From Aequorivita vitellina (GTDB lineage Bacteria > Bacteroidota > Bacteroidia > Flavobacteriales > Flavobacteriaceae): a stretch of DNA of 45,548 bases. The notes beneath the pieces were generated by a model. The model did no database searches. It was not told the DNA's origin and saw only the letters and a program-made list of their open reading frames with translations. Within the stretch, counting starts at the first letter, position 1. Every line of letters starts with the position of its first letter. The stretch lies in assembly GCF_022008365.1 (NCBI RefSeq), contig NZ_JAIRBA010000031.1:1-45548 (forward strand), given 5' to 3'. A program made the position numbers and the translations under genes. Positions 17,257 to 40,940 of the stretch are shown here, piece after piece.

Positions 17257-18684
17257 ATGAGCAGAACTGCGGAATCGGTTTGGAACAATTGTTTGGCTTT
17301 TATCGAAGATAATATTACTTCGCAGGCTTTCAAAACTTGGTTCGAGCCAATAAAAGCGGTAAAGCTAACCGATAATGCATTAAGCATACAGGTGCCGAGC
17401 AAATTTTTTTATGAATGGCTCGAAGAACATTACGTTAAAATTTTAAAGGTTGCCCTCACCAAGGAATTGGGCGCTACAGCCAAATTAGTTTACATTATTA
17501 GAATGGAAAACACCTACGGCAACAAACAACCTTTTACCGAAAAAATACCCAGCGCCAACCGTAGCAACCTTACCTCACAAGAGGTTGACGTACCGCTAAA
17601 AAATAAAAGCCCAGAACTTAAAAATCCGTTTGTAATTCCTGGTATTCGCAATGTAAAAATTGAATCGCAACTAAACCCAAATTATAATTTTGAAAGTTTT
17701 TTAGAAGGCGAATCCAACAGATTGGCCCGCTCGGCAGGATTAGCTGTGGCTAATAAACCCGGTGGCACTTCATTCAACCCCTTGCTTATTTTTGGCGGTG
17801 TTGGACTAGGGAAAACACATTTAGGTCACGCAATTGGCGTTGATATAAAAGATAAATATCCAGAAAAAACCGTACTCTATATTTCTGCCGAAAAGTTTAC
17901 GCAGCAATATATTGAATCTGTAAAAAAGAACAACCGTAACGACTTTATTCACTTCTACCAAATTATAGATGTGTTGATAGTTGACGACATACAATTGCTT
18001 TCTGGAAAAGCGGGAACGCAAGATGTTTTCTTTCATATTTTTAATCATTTACACCAAAACGGGAAACAAGTTATTTTAACCAGCGACAAAGCTCCTGTTG
18101 ACATGATTGATATAGAACAGCGACTGCTTTCACGTTTTAAATGGGGACTCTCTGCTGAATTAAATCATCCAGATTACGACACGCGTGTTGCCATCATTAA
18201 AAACAAACTATATCGCGACGGCGTTGAAATGCCCGATGATATTATAGAGTTTTTGGCGAATAATATTAAAACAAACATACGTGAACTTGAAGGCGCCATC
18301 ATTTCGTTGATTGCGCATTCTTCATTCAATAAAAAGGAAATTACAATTGAACTTGCCCGCAAGATTGTTGACAATTATGTTAAGCACACCAAGCGCGAAG
18401 TTTCTATAGATTATATTCAAAAAGTTGTGAGCGATTATTTCCAAATGGATGTAGATACATTACAGTCTAAAACACGAAAAAGACACATCGTTCAGGCACG
18501 CCAATTAGCGATGTTTTTTGCGAAAAAATTCACCAAAGCATCGCTTGCATCAATTGGTTCGCAAATTGGGCAACGCGATCACGCAACCGTACTTCACGCT
18601 TGCAAAACAGTTGATAATCTTTCGAGTACCGACAAGCAATTCCGCAAATACGTAGAAGATTTAAGCAAAAAATTGACGCTTTAA
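17257..18684 (+). CDS. dnaA: Chromosomal replication initiator DnaA
   Basis: DnaA binds origin 9-mers and melts oriC as an ATP-bound filament. All four domains are visible in 475 aa. Domain I is NCLAFIEDNITSQAFKTWF. A variable linker runs to about residue 140. The AAA+ domain III has Walker A GGVGLGKTHLG (180-190), Walker B VLIVDDIQLL (239-248) and sensor/arginine-finger region QRLLSRFKWGL. Domain IV ends with the DnaA signature QRDHATVLHA. The start MSRTAESVWNNC aligns with homologs. A candidate promoter lies 84 bp upstream. The flanking genes are not typical of an origin region, so the chromosomal origin is not obviously here. Confidence 0.98.
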   Translation: MSRTAESVWNNCLAFIEDNITSQAFKTWFEPIKAVKLTDNALSIQVPSKFFYEWLEEHYVKILKVALTKELGATAKLVYIIRMENTYGNKQPFTEKIPSANRSNLTSQEVDVPLKNKSPELKNPFVIPGIRNVKIESQLNPNYNFESFLEGESNRLARSAGLAVANKPGGTSFNPLLIFGGVGLGKTHLGHAIGVDIKDKYPEKTVLYISAEKFTQQYIESVKKNNRNDFIHFYQIIDVLIVDDIQLLSGKAGTQDVFFHIFNHLHQNGKQVILTSDKAPVDMIDIEQRLLSRFKWGLSAELNHPDYDTRVAIIKNKLYRDGVEMPDDIIEFLANNIKTNIRELEGAIISLIAHSSFNKKEITIELARKIVDNYVKHTKREVSIDYIQKVVSDYFQMDVDTLQSKTRKRHIVQARQLAMFFAKKFTKASLASIGSQIGQRDHATVLHACKTVDNLSSTDKQFRKYVEDLSKKLTL

Positions 18685-28788: not shown

Positions 28789-28824
28789 TATATTTGAGAC
28801 CTCACTTTTAACATTTCTTTAATA

Positions 28825-30258
28825 ATGCGATTCTTATCTCACAATTCAATTCCTTTTCTTTTGTCAATCTTCTTATTTACATCCTGCTCAAAAGACAGCG
28901 ATGATCCAGTGCCCCAAGAAACTGTAATAACCGTTTCAACCAGTGATTTTTCCATAACAATAGATGAAAACCCAACAAACGGGCAAGTAATTGGAATTGT
29001 TCAAGGAAGCACAAATGACGGAGCAGTTGCTTTCTCAATTACTGAACAAACACCTGAGGGCGCGTTTTCTATTGATGCGGCTTCGGGAGAATTGAAAGTT
29101 GCTGATGAAACGCTCTTTGATTTTGAAACAAATCCTACAATTACCGGGATCGTGAATGTAGCCAATGGCGCTGTTTCAGAAAATGCTTCGGTTGTAATTA
29201 CGTTGAATGATTTGGTGGAGGAGACTGTTTATGAAGGGGATTTAATTTTAAGATCACAGCAAGAAGTAAACGATTTTGGAGCTAATAATTACATGGCAAT
29301 AATTGGAAACTTATATATTGGTGATCCAGAAGAAGGTACCACTACAGATATTTACGATTTAACTCCACTTCAAAGTTTAAGATCGATAAATGGAGATTTA
29401 AGTATTTCTAACAACCCTTCATTGATCTCTACGGTAGGTTTAAATATTCAAAATTTAAATGGCGCACTTGTCATTTTTTCTAATGAAACTTTAGAAATGT
29501 TAGAAGGGCTTAACGATTTAACCTCAGTTCATGATCTGGTTTTATCATTTAATGCTGGCTTGTTGGACCTTTCTGGATTAAATCAACTTACTTCCATAGA
29601 GGATAGATTGATATTGATTTCTTGCCCACTAATATCAAATCTTGATTGGCTAAGCAATTTAACATCGTTTGGAGGAGACTTAACTATTATAAATTGTAAT
29701 TCGCTAACAAATATTGATGGTCTCAGCAATCTAACCACTGCGAACGGTGAATATAATTATTTTAGAATAACACATAATAGTTCTCTTTTAAATCTGAATG
29801 GAATTGAAAATTTAAATACTGAAATATATCACTTGGAAATAACAATGAACTCTTCGCTTACGAGTATTGAAGGCTTGCAAAATAAAAGAGTGACTACTAC
29901 ATTAAGTATTATAGAAAATCCCTTTTTAGAAAATCTTCATGGTTTAGAATCAACCACTAATATTTCTAATGAACTTAACATACAGAACAATAATTCTCTA
30001 ATAAATATTCAAGGATTAAGGAATTTAGAAACTGCTGAAACACTTCAAATATTTAATAATGAAAAGCTACCAAATTTGGTTGGCTTAAACAATTTAGAAA
30101 TATGTCGTAATTTAGATATAAGAGGCAATAATGAACTTGCAGATTTTTGTGACTTACAAAACCTCTTCATAAATGGTAGTAATAATAGCTACATTGCAAT
30201 ATACAACGCCTACAATCCAACAAAACAAGACATAATAGACGGCAATTGCAGCCTTTAA
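28825..30258 (+). CDS. Surface lipoprotein with cadherin-like and receptor-L-like repeats, copy 1
   Basis: The 477-aa lipoprotein has signal MRFLSHNSIPFLLSIFLFTSC. The residues after the acylated Cys (SKDSDD) are acidic, resembling the Bacteroidota lipoprotein export signal for surface exposure. A cadherin-like domain follows at about 38-130 (DENPTNGQVIGIVQGS, GAFSIDAASGELKVADE, LFDFETNP). The remainder is a right-handed repeat array resembling receptor L domains (LYIGDPEEGTTTDIYDL, LSISNNPSLIST, GLNDLTSVHDLVLS). It ends in NAYNPTKQDIIDGNCSL. Copies 2 and 3 follow, sharing near-identical 5' DNA and the same ending. Likely a surface recognition or adhesion protein; ligand unknown. Only this copy has a different signal peptide. 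Confidence 0.85.
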   Translation: MRFLSHNSIPFLLSIFLFTSCSKDSDDPVPQETVITVSTSDFSITIDENPTNGQVIGIVQGSTNDGAVAFSITEQTPEGAFSIDAASGELKVADETLFDFETNPTITGIVNVANGAVSENASVVITLNDLVEETVYEGDLILRSQQEVNDFGANNYMAIIGNLYIGDPEEGTTTDIYDLTPLQSLRSINGDLSISNNPSLISTVGLNIQNLNGALVIFSNETLEMLEGLNDLTSVHDLVLSFNAGLLDLSGLNQLTSIEDRLILISCPLISNLDWLSNLTSFGGDLTIINCNSLTNIDGLSNLTTANGEYNYFRITHNSSLLNLNGIENLNTEIYHLEITMNSSLTSIEGLQNKRVTTTLSIIENPFLENLHGLESTTNISNELNIQNNNSLINIQGLRNLETAETLQIFNNEKLPNLVGLNNLEICRNLDIRGNNELADFCDLQNLFINGSNNSYIAIYNAYNPTKQDIIDGNCSL

Positions 30259-30268
30259 AAACGAAATA

Positions 30269-31705
30269 ATGAATAGACTTTTAACTTTCAGAATAATTGC
30301 AGCAGCTATTATTCTCAGCTTCATTTCTTGCTCAAAAGACAGCGATGATCCAGTGCCCCAAGAAATTGAAATAACAGTTTCAACCAGTGATTTTTCCATA
30401 ACAATGGATGAAAACCCAACAAACGGGCAAATAATTGGAAGCGTTCAAGGAAGCACAAATGATGGAGCAGTTGCTTTCTCAATTACTGAACAAACACCTT
30501 CGGGCGCCTTTTCTATTGATTCGGCTTCGGGAGAATTGAAAGTTGCTAATGAAACGCTCTTTGATTTTGAAACAAATCCTACAATTACCGGGATCGTGAA
30601 TGTAGCCAATGGCGCTGTTTCTGAAAATGCTTCGGTTGAAATTACTTTGAATGATTTGGTTGAGGAGAATGTTTATGAGGGGGATGTAATTTTAAAAACA
30701 CAAGAAGAAGTTAATGATTTTGGAGCAAATCAATATACACAAATTAACGGCCTACTCCTTATTGGTCATCCTGAAGAAAACGGAACAACAGATATTATTG
30801 ATTTATCACCGCTTCATAGTATTAAAATTGTGAACAATAGCCTACAAATTAAAAACAATACCATATTAACATCAACTGTAGGGCTCAATGTAAATTTTAT
30901 TTTAGGGCAAATAGCAATTCTTAATAATCCCTCTTTAGAGAGCATTAAAGGGTTTGAGAGCATTAATTCCACCCTCGGAATTTTCCTTTCTAACAATCAA
31001 GTACTCACCGATGTTTCAGGTTTGAGTCAAATTACCCATATCGAACTTAATTTTAGTATAATTTCATGTCCATCATTGCCCGATATTGATTGGCTCCAAA
31101 ACCTTTCGGAAATTGGAAATGGAATTAAATTAATAGGCCTCAATTCAATTAGAAATATAAACGCTTTAAGTAATTTAAGAAATTTTACTGATGCCTATGG
31201 ATCCATATATATTGCAAATAACACTTCTTTAGAAAATCTAGATGGACTTCAAAATTTTTCTGATGATATTACTTTTTTAGATATCATTGGCAATACGGCA
31301 CTTCAAAATATTCAAGGTTTGGAAAATATTGGTGTATTTCAAGAATTGAAAATAAAAAACAATGAATCGCTACAGAGTTTAAACGGGCTTGGAGCAATTA
31401 CGGCTGTTAACAACAGAATTGAAATTAGAAACAACAACTCTCTTATTGATCTACAAGGCCTCAATAACTTGGAAAGAGCCAGCAACTCATTTTTGATTCA
31501 AGATAATGAAAGTCTCACAAGTTTAAATGGGTTGGATGGAATTGAAAGTTTTACATTAATCCGATGCTATAACAATACGGTACTTTCAGATTTTTGTGCT
31601 TTACGCAGCGCTTTAATCTTAAATAGCAATTTCGGTTTTAGTGCAGAAAACAACGCCTACAATCCAACAAAACAAGACATCATAGACGGCAATTGTAGCC
31701 TTTAA
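30269..31705 (+). CDS. Surface lipoprotein with cadherin-like and receptor-L-like repeats, copy 2
   Basis: The 478-aa protein has signal MNRLLTFRIIAAAIILSFISC and the same SKDSDDPVPQE start as copy 1. The cadherin-like domain is nearly identical to copy 1 (GAFSIDSASGELKVANE, LFDFETNPTITGIV). From about residue 135 the receptor-L-like repeats diverge strongly (IDLSPLHSIKIVNNSL, LESIKGFESINSTL, NINALSNLRNF). The final 17 residues equal those of copy 1. It is 10 bp downstream of copy 1 and should be cotranscribed. The signal peptide and 5' DNA are shared with copy 3 but not copy 1, so copies 2 and 3 arose from a more recent duplication or were homogenised by gene conversion. Confidence 0.85.
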   Translation: MNRLLTFRIIAAAIILSFISCSKDSDDPVPQEIEITVSTSDFSITMDENPTNGQIIGSVQGSTNDGAVAFSITEQTPSGAFSIDSASGELKVANETLFDFETNPTITGIVNVANGAVSENASVEITLNDLVEENVYEGDVILKTQEEVNDFGANQYTQINGLLLIGHPEENGTTDIIDLSPLHSIKIVNNSLQIKNNTILTSTVGLNVNFILGQIAILNNPSLESIKGFESINSTLGIFLSNNQVLTDVSGLSQITHIELNFSIISCPSLPDIDWLQNLSEIGNGIKLIGLNSIRNINALSNLRNFTDAYGSIYIANNTSLENLDGLQNFSDDITFLDIIGNTALQNIQGLENIGVFQELKIKNNESLQSLNGLGAITAVNNRIEIRNNNSLIDLQGLNNLERASNSFLIQDNESLTSLNGLDGIESFTLIRCYNNTVLSDFCALRSALILNSNFGFSAENNAYNPTKQDIIDGNCSL

Positions 31706-31715
31706 AAACGAAATA

Positions 31716-33146
31716 ATGAATAGACTTTTAACTTTCAGAATAATAGCAGCAGCTATTATTCTCACCTTCATTTCTTGCTCAAAAGACAGCGATGATCCAG
31801 TGCCCCAAGAAATTGAAATAACAGTTTCAACAGAAGACTTTTCAACCACAATGGATGAAAACCCAACCAACGGGCAAATAATCGGAACCGTTCAAGGAAG
31901 CACTAATGAAGGCGCCATTACTTTTTCAATTAGAGCACAAAACCCTGCGGGGGCGTTTTCTATTGATTCCGCTTCGGGAGAACTGAAAGTTGCTGATGAA
32001 GCGCTTTTTGAATTTGAAACTAATCCAACTATTTCCGGGACAGTGCAAGTTTCAAATGGAGCTGTTTCGGAAAATGCTTCGGTTACCATTTCTTTGAATG
32101 AGCAAAATATCTATGAATTACCTTATATCCGTTTATGGACACAAGAAGATGTAAACCTTTTTGGAGCTAATCAATATACAAGAATTATGGGTACACTATA
32201 TATCGGAACTCCATATGAAGGCTATACAACAGATATTTCTGATTTATCTCCACTTGGAAGCATAAAAACGGTTGATGCTAATTTAAAAATACGTAACAAC
32301 CCCGACTTAATATCCACGACAGGACTGGGTGTTACTCACATTGGAGAAGGACTCATCGTTTCTGAGAATAAAAATTTGGAAAACCTAGATGGACTCGAAG
32401 GTTTAACTTACGTTCAGTATTTACAATTAATTCATAATTTTGCATTGTCCGATTTCTCAAGTTTAAGTCAATTAACTTCCCTTGACAATGGGCTTTATCT
32501 AAGTGGTTGTTATTTATTGACGGATGTAGACTGGTTAAGTAACGTGGCTTCTATCGGCAATGTCATTGATATTACCAATAATCCCAATTTAACAAATATA
32601 AATGGGCTTTCTAATTTAAGAAATTTTACAGGGGAACCCGACTATATTAGCTTTAATACCAATATAAACCTAACAAATTTGAACGGTCTCCGAAATTTAA
32701 CTGCCAACGTATCTAATTTGTCGCTATTCCAGAACTATTCATTAGTAAATATTGATGGTTTGGCAAATATACAGGTGACTAAGTCAATTAATATACGTTA
32801 TAATCACGCATTAGAAAATATTGATGGACTCGAGTCAACCATCGGTCTCGAGGATGAACTTTTTATATTTCATAACATTTCTTTGAGAAATTTATTCGGC
32901 TTACAACAAATTACTAACATAGGAAAAGTAACTATCGATGAAAATGAAAATCTGCTAAGTCTAAATGGATTAGAAAACCTTTTACGAGTTTCTCAATCAT
33001 TTAGAGCAAGGCAAAATTCTAATCTTTCAGATTTCTGTGCTTTAACTAATTTATGCGTCAATGGAGATTTAAACATTTTGCAAGCAGAAAACAACGCCTA
33101 CAACCCCACAAAACAAGACATTATAGATGGCAATTGCAGCTTATAA
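31716..33146 (+). CDS. Surface lipoprotein with cadherin-like and receptor-L-like repeats, copy 3
   Basis: The 476-aa protein has signal MNRLLTFRIIAAAIILTFISC, differing from copy 2 at one residue. Its cadherin-like domain is more diverged (TEDFSTTMDENP, SIRAQNPAGAFSID, FEFETNPTISGTV), and the linker lacks the acidic EENVYEGD segment of the other two. The receptor-L-like repeats run from about 130 to 455 (GLGVTHIGEGLIVSENKN, GLESTIGLEDELFIFHN). The tail NAYNPTKQDIIDGNCSL is invariant. A strong terminator follows 30 bp later, closing the three-gene unit that presumably starts before copy 1. Confidence 0.85.
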   Translation: MNRLLTFRIIAAAIILTFISCSKDSDDPVPQEIEITVSTEDFSTTMDENPTNGQIIGTVQGSTNEGAITFSIRAQNPAGAFSIDSASGELKVADEALFEFETNPTISGTVQVSNGAVSENASVTISLNEQNIYELPYIRLWTQEDVNLFGANQYTRIMGTLYIGTPYEGYTTDISDLSPLGSIKTVDANLKIRNNPDLISTTGLGVTHIGEGLIVSENKNLENLDGLEGLTYVQYLQLIHNFALSDFSSLSQLTSLDNGLYLSGCYLLTDVDWLSNVASIGNVIDITNNPNLTNINGLSNLRNFTGEPDYISFNTNINLTNLNGLRNLTANVSNLSLFQNYSLVNIDGLANIQVTKSINIRYNHALENIDGLESTIGLEDELFIFHNISLRNLFGLQQITNIGKVTIDENENLLSLNGLENLLRVSQSFRARQNSNLSDFCALTNLCVNGDLNILQAENNAYNPTKQDIIDGNCSL

Positions 33147-37574: not shown

Positions 37575-37645
37575 CACCCACTTAATTCAACCTCTGGCGA
37601 AAACCGTGAATGTTGTTTTAATTTAAACCTTATCAAGCTAACAAA

Positions 37646-37996
37646 ATGGAAGCATTAATAAAATTTGTAGAAGACGAATTCGTTACAAAAAAAGAATTTC
37701 CTGAATTCGGAACTGGTGATACCATTACCGTTTACTACGAAATTCGCGAAGGCGAAAAAACAAGAACCCAATTCTTTAGAGGAGTAGTAATTCAAGTTAA
37801 AGGAACAGGTACAACTAAAACTTTTACAATTAGAAAAATGAGTGGTACTGTTGGTGTGGAACGTATCTTCCCACTTAATATGCCAGCACTTCAAAAAATT
37901 GAGATCAATAAAAAAGGTAGTGTGCGTAGAGCCCGTATCTTTTACTTTAGAGGTCTTACCGGAAGAAAAGCCCGTATCAAAGAAAAACGTTCATAG
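37646..37996 (+). CDS. rplS: 50S ribosomal protein L19
   Basis: L19 sits at the 30S-50S interface. The 116-aa sequence is canonical: KKEFPEFGTGDTITVYYEI, the central RTQFFRGVVIQVKGTG, FTIRKMSGTVGVERIFPL and the basic tail VRRARIFYFRGLTGRKARIKEK. It is transcribed alone, from its own promoter to its own terminator, rather than with trmD, rimM and rpsP as in many other bacteria. Confidence 0.98.
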   Translation: MEALIKFVEDEFVTKKEFPEFGTGDTITVYYEIREGEKTRTQFFRGVVIQVKGTGTTKTFTIRKMSGTVGVERIFPLNMPALQKIEINKKGSVRRARIFYFRGLTGRKARIKEKRS

Positions 37997-38019
37997 TTTA
38001 TTTTTTGTTGAAAACTCTC

Positions 38020-38047
38020 AAAAGCCCTGTATTTACAGGGCTTTTTT
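38020..38047 (+). terminator. rplS terminator
   Basis: AAAAGCCCTGT (38020-38030) pairs with ACAGGGCTTTT (38035-38045) around ATTT, followed by T residues. Strong stem 24 bp after the stop codon. Confidence 0.95.
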
Positions 38048-38149
38048 TATGAACAATTGTTAACATGCACTGTTTGTAAACTGTGGATTTTTAATGGGTT
38101 ACAAACACTTGCGCATTCCAATTTCCGTATTATATTAGCAATATCAAAA

Positions 38150-38548
38150 ACGGCCTAACAGCCCAATTGAAAACCTAAAGTAACGTTCTTTTACATATTT
38201 TTTCAAAATTATAAATGAAGCTAACGCTCGCAAGAATGTTAGTTTCCAGATTTTGAATTAATAAAAAGCAACACACTTTACAAGCTTTTTTTGATTGCTT
38301 GAGGTACTCACGATCTTTAGATTATTAGTACTGAGATCAAAAAAGTTTATGAGTCGCTTTTTTAAAAGACGCATTTGTCTTACAGCAATGCGAAACTAGA
38401 AAAATTCGAACTCGTGTAAGTAAATCACATTTGCAAGTGGATAATAAACTTGCCTTGTTTCCGCCTTGACGGATAGATGGTAACGATTTACTTTACAAGG
38501 AGCCATATCACAATGTATTTATACAGTGATATGGCTTTTCTTGTTTTT
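38150..38548 (+). ncRNA. Candidate structured non-coding RNA between rplS and icd
   Basis: The 640-bp rplS-icd gap has no credible reading frame yet ends in a strong plus-strand terminator (38501-38548), so something between the two terminators must be transcribed. Internal pairing supports a folded RNA. A rod has TTCAAAAT (38202-38209) with ATTTTGAA (38250-38257), enclosing CTAAC (38221-38225) with GTTAG (38238-38242). A three-way junction is closed by GTAAGTAAATC (38416-38426) with GATTTACTT(T)AC (38485-38496). It holds GCAAGT/ACTTGC (38433-38453) and TCCG/CGGA (38460-38473). The 5' end is not determined; I found no convincing promoter. It lacks RNase P, tmRNA and SRP signatures. Other options: a 6S-type RNA or a lineage-specific RNA. 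Confidence 0.55.
38501..38548 (+). terminator. Strong terminator of the candidate ncRNA
   Basis: AGCCATATCAC (38501-38511) and GTGATATGGCT (38526-38536) form a perfect 11-bp stem with a 14-nt loop, followed by TTTTCTTGTTTTT. The T-run is only on the plus strand, so it ends plus-strand RNA made downstream of the rplS terminator. Confidence 0.93.
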
Positions 38549-38644
38549 AGAAGTTGCATTTTTAAGTAAAGTTAACGCGATTTTAAATCTAAGTTTCTTC
38601 GGTGTGTTTCAAGTCTTACTTGAGCAATTATGCTGCTACTTCTC

Positions 38645-38675
38645 TTTCAAAAACGCCGCCAAATCGCTATCTTTG
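38645..38675 (+). promoter_or_regulatory. icd promoter
   Basis: TTTC (38645-38648), 19-bp spacer, then TATCTTTG (38668-38675), an exact -7 match. The start would be near 38680. Confidence 0.7.
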
Positions 38676-38684
38676 CAACTTTAA

Positions 38685-40940
<2,256 letters not shown>

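Follow-up and report, generated by a model that had tools for sequence, protein, structure and literature searches.

A predicted structured noncoding RNA with its own promoter-like site and terminator beside rplS in Flavobacteriaceae

Introduction

6S-Flavo (RF01685) has been described as a stand-alone RNA of Bacteroidetes in the material of PMC2864571, and in Flavobacterium psychrophilum the Rfp sRNAs have been described as independent transcripts, several of them strongly structured, with one, Rfp18, reported to affect protease mRNAs (PMC9723704). On a larger scale, OLE, GOLLD, and ROOL are presented in PMC12286853 as large ornate conserved bacterial RNAs known from structure.

The window considered here is a stretch of 45,548 nucleotides from Aequorivita vitellina (contig NZ_JAIRBA010000031.1), for which the original prediction, made from the letters of the sequence, placed a candidate structured RNA in an orphan transcription unit between rplS and icd. 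The analysis described below indicates that this locus almost certainly contains a real structured RNA gene.

Gene Neighborhood and Borders of the Unit

The genes named on the two sides by the original prediction were confirmed by NCBIfam as rplS upstream (37646-37996; TIGR01024) and icd downstream (38691-40940; TIGR00178). The stretch of about 450 bp said to hold no credible gene is indeed devoid of one, with no ORF of at least 60 amino acids (ATG, GTG, or TTG starts) overlapping 38064-38680 on either strand, and both of the strong plus-strand terminators said to flank it are present as sequence. The first, an intrinsic terminator after rplS at 38019-38048, forms the upstream border of the unit (predicted fold of -16.0 kcal/mol, z -5.2, equaled by 0 of 200 shuffles). 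The second, at 38495-38545, is the RNA's own terminator hairpin (-22.8 kcal/mol, z -6.9, equaled by 0 of 200 shuffles), and its sequence is strongly conserved. A generic terminator scanner listed three terminator-like sites, all on the minus strand, and neither plus-strand hairpin, probably because each stem runs into its T tract. The conservation of the terminator sequence in the window and its homologues (AGCCATATCA...TGATATGGCT) exceeds what a terminator would seem to need.

Elsewhere in the window, dnaA was located at 17257-18681 (TIGR00362, 505.9 bits), 19 kb upstream of the RNA; the ORFs run leftward before about 14 kb and mostly rightward beyond. Three tandem ORFs of about 486 codons each occupy 28798-33143 and are alike in their first 60 residues, with lipoprotein-like starts; the first two have no NCBIfam match.

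Comparison with Known RNA Families

No Rfam 15 family reaches its gathering score within 38048-38548, the only match in the window being the L19-Flavobacteria ribosomal protein leader (RF03130) upstream of rplS at 37588-37615 (43.5 bits). For 20 loci of other genera, the equivalent interval again gave no gathering match, the 19 RF03130 matches and one Flavo-1 match all falling outside the unit. The top sub-threshold match, to STnc150 on the minus strand, had 28.7 bits where 60 are required (E 4.6e-4 for 801 bases searched). The original prediction had offered a 6S-like or an undescribed RNA and had pointed to 6S-Flavo and Flavo-1 as the Rfam families to look for; neither occurs in the interval at cut-off. 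On the Rfam evidence, identity with 6S-Flavo was rejected, as the interval has no match and the genome's copy lies on another contig (G000:C22:79647-79754, 104.5 bits), whereas the undescribed alternative is favored by the lack of any Rfam family at gathering together with strong covariation. A second 6S-like RNA or another known RNA too diverged for Rfam would agree with the size and the rod-like 5′ part, but is very improbable given the 6S-Flavo copy elsewhere and the lack of a gathering match both in this interval and in the 20 other loci.

Y RNA was also considered and rejected: TROVE (PF05731), the partner family of Y RNAs, is present in 1 of 199 family genomes, and its absence from the other 198 rules it out as the partner. 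In the open-licence literature searched, no report of the window RNA was found; it may coincide with an RNA that is already catalogued, for example a member of the Rfp set of F. psychrophilum described in PMC9723704. On the sequence comparisons made here, the window RNA is predicted to be a new family of structured bacterial noncoding RNA.

Conservation and Covariation

Blastn matches to the stretch running from the first terminator through the second were obtained in 26 of the 27 other genomes of the genus, the sole exception (G007, with an assembly 69% complete) being left out of the alignment. The resulting 27 Aequorivita sequences, own genome included (alignment A1), are conserved through the upstream element, the promoter-like TTG-19-TATATTAG, the RNA, and the second terminator, and are divergent beyond. 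Over 38140-38545 of the plus strand, the predicted fold of -103.9 compares with a shuffled mean of -72.8 (z -6.1), with 0 of 100 shuffles as good.

Covarying stems in relatives, the comparative check named in the original prediction, were found in all three alignments that were examined. Across 38130-38546 in A1, 44 of 137 predicted pairs change on both sides, a number reached in 0 of 500 shuffles, and 94.4% of cells are paired, versus 90.6% in shuffles. The second alignment (A5) covers the 3′ domain in 30 sequences, that is, 13 of the 27 from Aequorivita and 17 from other genera, aligned regardless of structure. Here both partners vary in 27 of 42 pairs, and 93.1% of cells are paired, versus 84.3% in shuffles; on each of five measures, none of 500 shuffles reached the value of the alignment. 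The third (A6) consists of 17 sequences passing a filter of CGTTCTTT, the terminator, and CAATCA..GGTTG, and hence chosen partly by sequence; this group (Zobellia, Maribacter, Eudoraea, Kriegella, and others) has the same arrangement, with a closing stem and two hairpins followed by the terminator. In A6, two-sided changes were counted at 15 of 41 pairs, a number that none of 500 shuffles reached; both hairpin A and the greater part of the terminator are invariant and so uninformative there. When partners were slid by 1-3 columns, pairing in A5 fell to 34-44%, and it likewise fell in A1 and A6, a comparison that favors the unslid structures in that all three were predicted from the same alignments in which they were counted.

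The two strands were also compared with the terminator left out; 27 sequences were named, the window RNA among them, and 25 passed, two of the sequences (L057 and L235) being from one genome. The sense z was lower than the antisense z in 21 of the 25 (medians -2.4 versus -1.1), with the antisense lower in four; the sense z exceeds -1.4 in four sequences, and the antisense strands of L199 and L062 also fold well.

Anatomy of the RNA

The RNA is predicted to be about 400 nt long and to span approximately 38144-38545 on the plus strand, with its 5′ end inferred from the promoter-like site. The interval originally put forward as the unit, 38048-38548, accordingly stands as RNA for about 38144-38545, but its first part, 38048-38130, consists of the upstream DNA element and the promoter-like site. 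All of the parts described below lie on the plus strand.

The conserved 5′ segment AAAGUAACGUUCUUUUACA occupies 38177-38195, and its AAAGU can pair with ACUUU at 38275-38279, a helix that hardly varies in A1 and so is conserved rather than covarying. The rod hairpin of the 5′ domain (38204-38258) folds well on its own (z -4.9, 0 of 200 shuffles), and 5 of its 11 pairs (helix 7 of A1) change on both sides; it was not seen by eye in L041 and L043. In the central hairpin domain (38281-38349), 8 of 21 pairs (helices 8 and 9 of A1) change on both sides, and the domain alone has a z of -2.9, with 3 of 200 shuffles equal. A covariance model built on 38274-38352 (R2) has matches in 9 of 199 family genomes.

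The three-way junction (38416-38496) comprises a closing stem (38416-38428/38480-38496), hairpin A (38433-38453), which has a loop with UAAUAA, and hairpin B (38458-38475). The junction alone (38416-38494) has a z of just -2.05, with 4 of 200 shuffles as good, and despite this weak stand-alone score it is the part with the best covariation support, 21 of its 23 pairs (helices 1-4 of A5) changing on both sides. Of the rod and three-way junction originally described before the terminator, both fold, but the rod is found to be lineage-specific; the junction, by contrast, is seen again in other genera, as is the terminator. Two further interactions, a pseudoknot joining the UAAUAA loop to UUAUUA and a long-range CGUU/AACG pair, were weighed by eye alone and dropped.

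The distance from GTTCTTT to the terminator was 255-590 nt in 68 regions, some of them sharing one genome, indicating that RNA length varies. One locus (L064, in genome G167) carries a G+C-richer form of 480 nt with a fold of -155 kcal/mol and many short hairpins.

Distribution among Flavobacteriaceae

Two covariance models were used in the survey of 199 Flavobacteriaceae genomes, one (R1) built from Aequorivita only and counted at E<=1e-3, and the other (R3) built without any Aequorivita sequence and counted at E<=1e-4. R1 has matches in 86 of the genomes, 84 of them outside Aequorivita, and R3 in 74, with a union of 106. In reading these numbers, it should be noted that the covariance-model E-values are rough and that, below about 45 bits, much of a match's score is due to the terminator hairpin, a part that gives matches on the opposite strand too. 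Although built from different genera, each of the two models finds the other's RNAs; indeed, R3 recovers the window RNA at 38409-38542 (41.6 bits, E 3.5e-6). For one genome (G226), the plus-strand R3 match was taken, the minus-strand match scoring slightly better.

Over 296 genomes of the order, with 10 candidates per genome scored, R1 gave 5 matches at E<=1e-4, all within the family; the R3 run was confined to family genomes. A terminator pattern, which misses the window's own terminator, was found in 13 of the 296 genomes, 12 of them in the family. When 500 bp after rplS were inspected by eye in hand-picked loci, the unit was recognized in 8 of 17 from the family and in none of 13 from outside it, one of the latter (L169) offering only 126 bp. 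The nine family loci without it include all five of the large genus g146, which, judging from its size, may be Flavobacterium. The unit is not universal in Flavobacteriaceae. It had no match in a plasmid collection, and in this genome the RNA reads as single-copy.

The Upstream Element and the Promoter-Like Site

A conserved DNA element precedes the RNA at 38052-38095 on the plus strand, with the consensus AACAAtTGTTaAtAAc....GTT.aTAA..tGTTgAT, that is, three boxes with GTT units 13 and 11 bp apart, the third unit being GTG in this genome. The consensus derives from 101 of 122 intergenic regions passing a score that rewards these boxes and is therefore partly so by construction; the 122 include duplicates, loci that had been retrieved with the pattern itself, and loci lacking the RNA. 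The first two boxes match once in this genome, even when 3 mismatches are allowed, versus 0 matches for the control. With at most 2 mismatches, they occur in 133 of 199 family genomes, and since the reversed-pattern control also occurs in 38 of 199, as counted among the matches listed, some of the 133 are due to chance.

Downstream of the element, at 38109-38138 on the plus strand, lies a promoter-like site composed of TTG (38109-38111), 19 bp, and TATATTAG (38131-38138); it is conserved in the Aequorivita alignment and resembles the Bacteroidetes promoter consensus. The best -7-like box falls 34-35 bp past the element in 76 of the 101 regions. Among the 86 R1 genomes, 71 carry the element upstream of the RNA on the same strand, 394-727 bp from the end of the RNA match, and among the 106 genomes of the union this order and strand are kept in 92. 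Furthermore, among the GTDB matches listed, 61 of 80 loci have GTTCTTT no more than 420 bp from the element. As far as sequence can tell, the RNA has both a promoter and a terminator of its own.

The three boxes are close to the DnaA-box consensus, and the array suggests either DnaA or a dedicated activator as a candidate regulator. That resemblance, the single occurrence of the boxes in the genome, and the position of dnaA 19 kb upstream in the window would also suit a DNA-level element, such as a replication origin or DnaA-binding locus, with transcription merely incidental. We consider this highly improbable: the nearly fixed distance from the boxes to the -7-like box and the covariation of the RNA point instead to a promoter and an RNA, and paired consensus DnaA boxes, present in 2 of 6 genomes, were in neither case at the RNA locus. 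GC skew also argues against it: in 20-point samples of four genomes (G016, G081, G247, and G002, the last too noisy), the locus lies well away from the minus-to-plus switch in G016 and G081, and in G247 it coincides with no switch. An oriC at the unit was rejected on the same coarse samples from these three genomes. The unit does lie near the plus-to-minus switch in G081, and perhaps in G002, a location that is terminus-like rather than origin-like.

Independence from rplS and icd

The unit is usually found beside rplS, which lies upstream in all 30 loci fetched with R1, two of them from Aequorivita. A GTDB scan for the element yielded at least 119 stretches; among the matches listed, rplS is directly upstream in 91 of 119 and about 0.5 kb further up in 2 (L236 and L290), icd is downstream with no adjoining rplS in 14, 4 are at a contig edge, and 7 have neither gene. 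Four of the 14 without adjoining rplS (L209, L228, L242, and L264) belong to the covarying A6-group sequence set, and one of the 119 listed stretches (L206) has GTTCTTT and no matched neighbor. As for icd, it lies about 1.5 kb from the unit in G150 and G125; no icd was seen in the flanking sequence retrieved for G103 and G123. In L041 and L055, a similar gene with a signal-peptide-like start was seen by eye between the RNA and icd.

The usual position beside rplS might be read as that of a cis-regulatory element, either an rplS 3′ UTR or an icd leader. Terminators on both sides, the RNA's own promoter-like site, the retention of the unit without adjacent icd in the four genomes just named, and the retention of the element and icd without rplS in the 14 of 119 listed stretches make such a reading barely credible. 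Since the unit persists without icd or rplS as its direct neighbor, it is not cis-regulatory for either, and the RNA is highly likely to act in trans.

Proposed Mode of Action

The gene anatomy, the conserved fold, the spread, and the independence from neighboring genes are, at the level of comparative sequence data, well established. Taken as a whole, a single-copy family of structured noncoding RNA with its own promoter and terminator, trans-acting and working most likely in an RNA-protein complex, is the reading that we moderately favor. The RNA would be transcribed from its own promoter, beneath the upstream element at a nearly fixed position, with the boxes binding an activator (DnaA or a dedicated regulator), and transcription would stop at the intrinsic terminator that belongs to the RNA. 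The 3′ domain, folded and bearing conserved loops, would then constitute a protein-binding or otherwise structural module, and the RNA would work within an RNA-protein complex, not by simple antisense regulation.

A trans-acting RNA might alternatively act by base pairing, with the conserved 5′ CGUUCUUU as a seed for A-rich translation starts. This segment is kept between sequence groups, GTTCTTT recurs in the 61 of 80 listed loci, and the effect reported for Rfp18 of F. psychrophilum on protease mRNAs (PMC9723704) provides a flavobacterial precedent. However, in three sets of predicted translation starts from sampled stretches, AAAGAAC is not enriched, ranking 31, 12, and 22 among 42 permutations, and in Aequorivita the segment is predicted to be largely paired (helices 4 and 5 of A1), leaving pairing with mRNA starts a possible but rather doubtful function. 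In our judgement, a protein-bound RNA is somewhat likelier than a base-pairing regulator, given a fold that is large and has several domains, the conserved loops, and a seed complement that is not enriched at predicted starts, although for the RNA-protein mechanism taken by itself we hold the chances to be evenly balanced. More speculatively, the RNA could be of a housekeeping class and form the core of a putative RNA-protein complex, its synthesis from a promoter unique in kind being tied by the box array (possibly through DnaA) to growth or to the replication cycle; this extension we regard as unlikely.

Overall, a large structured RNA is predicted in 106 of the 199 sampled Flavobacteriaceae genomes, without an Rfam match at cut-offs, and to our knowledge few such large structured RNAs have been described in Bacteroidetes. 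As the conserved promoter-linked element matches once in the genome, the regulator and the partner of the RNA could both be fished for directly.

Comparison with Described Systems

The Rfp sRNAs are, like the window RNA as predicted here, independent transcripts of a flavobacterium (Flavobacterium psychrophilum), and rplS is named 0 times in the main text that describes them (PMC9723704). 6S-Flavo resembles the window RNA in being a stand-alone RNA of Bacteroidetes, as far as it is described in PMC2864571, but differs from it in having a model of 108 positions, which has no match here. Flavo-1 (RF01705) is likewise a Flavobacteriaceae RNA motif without known function, but has 76 positions and no gathering match in the window, its one match, in L156, being upstream of rplS. 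The L19-Flavobacteria leader (RF03130) shares the neighborhood and differs in being a leader of 29 positions upstream of rplS. Finally, OLE, GOLLD, and ROOL, none of which has an Rfam match here, are like the window RNA in being large conserved bacterial RNAs, and are unlike it in their hosts and in their larger size.
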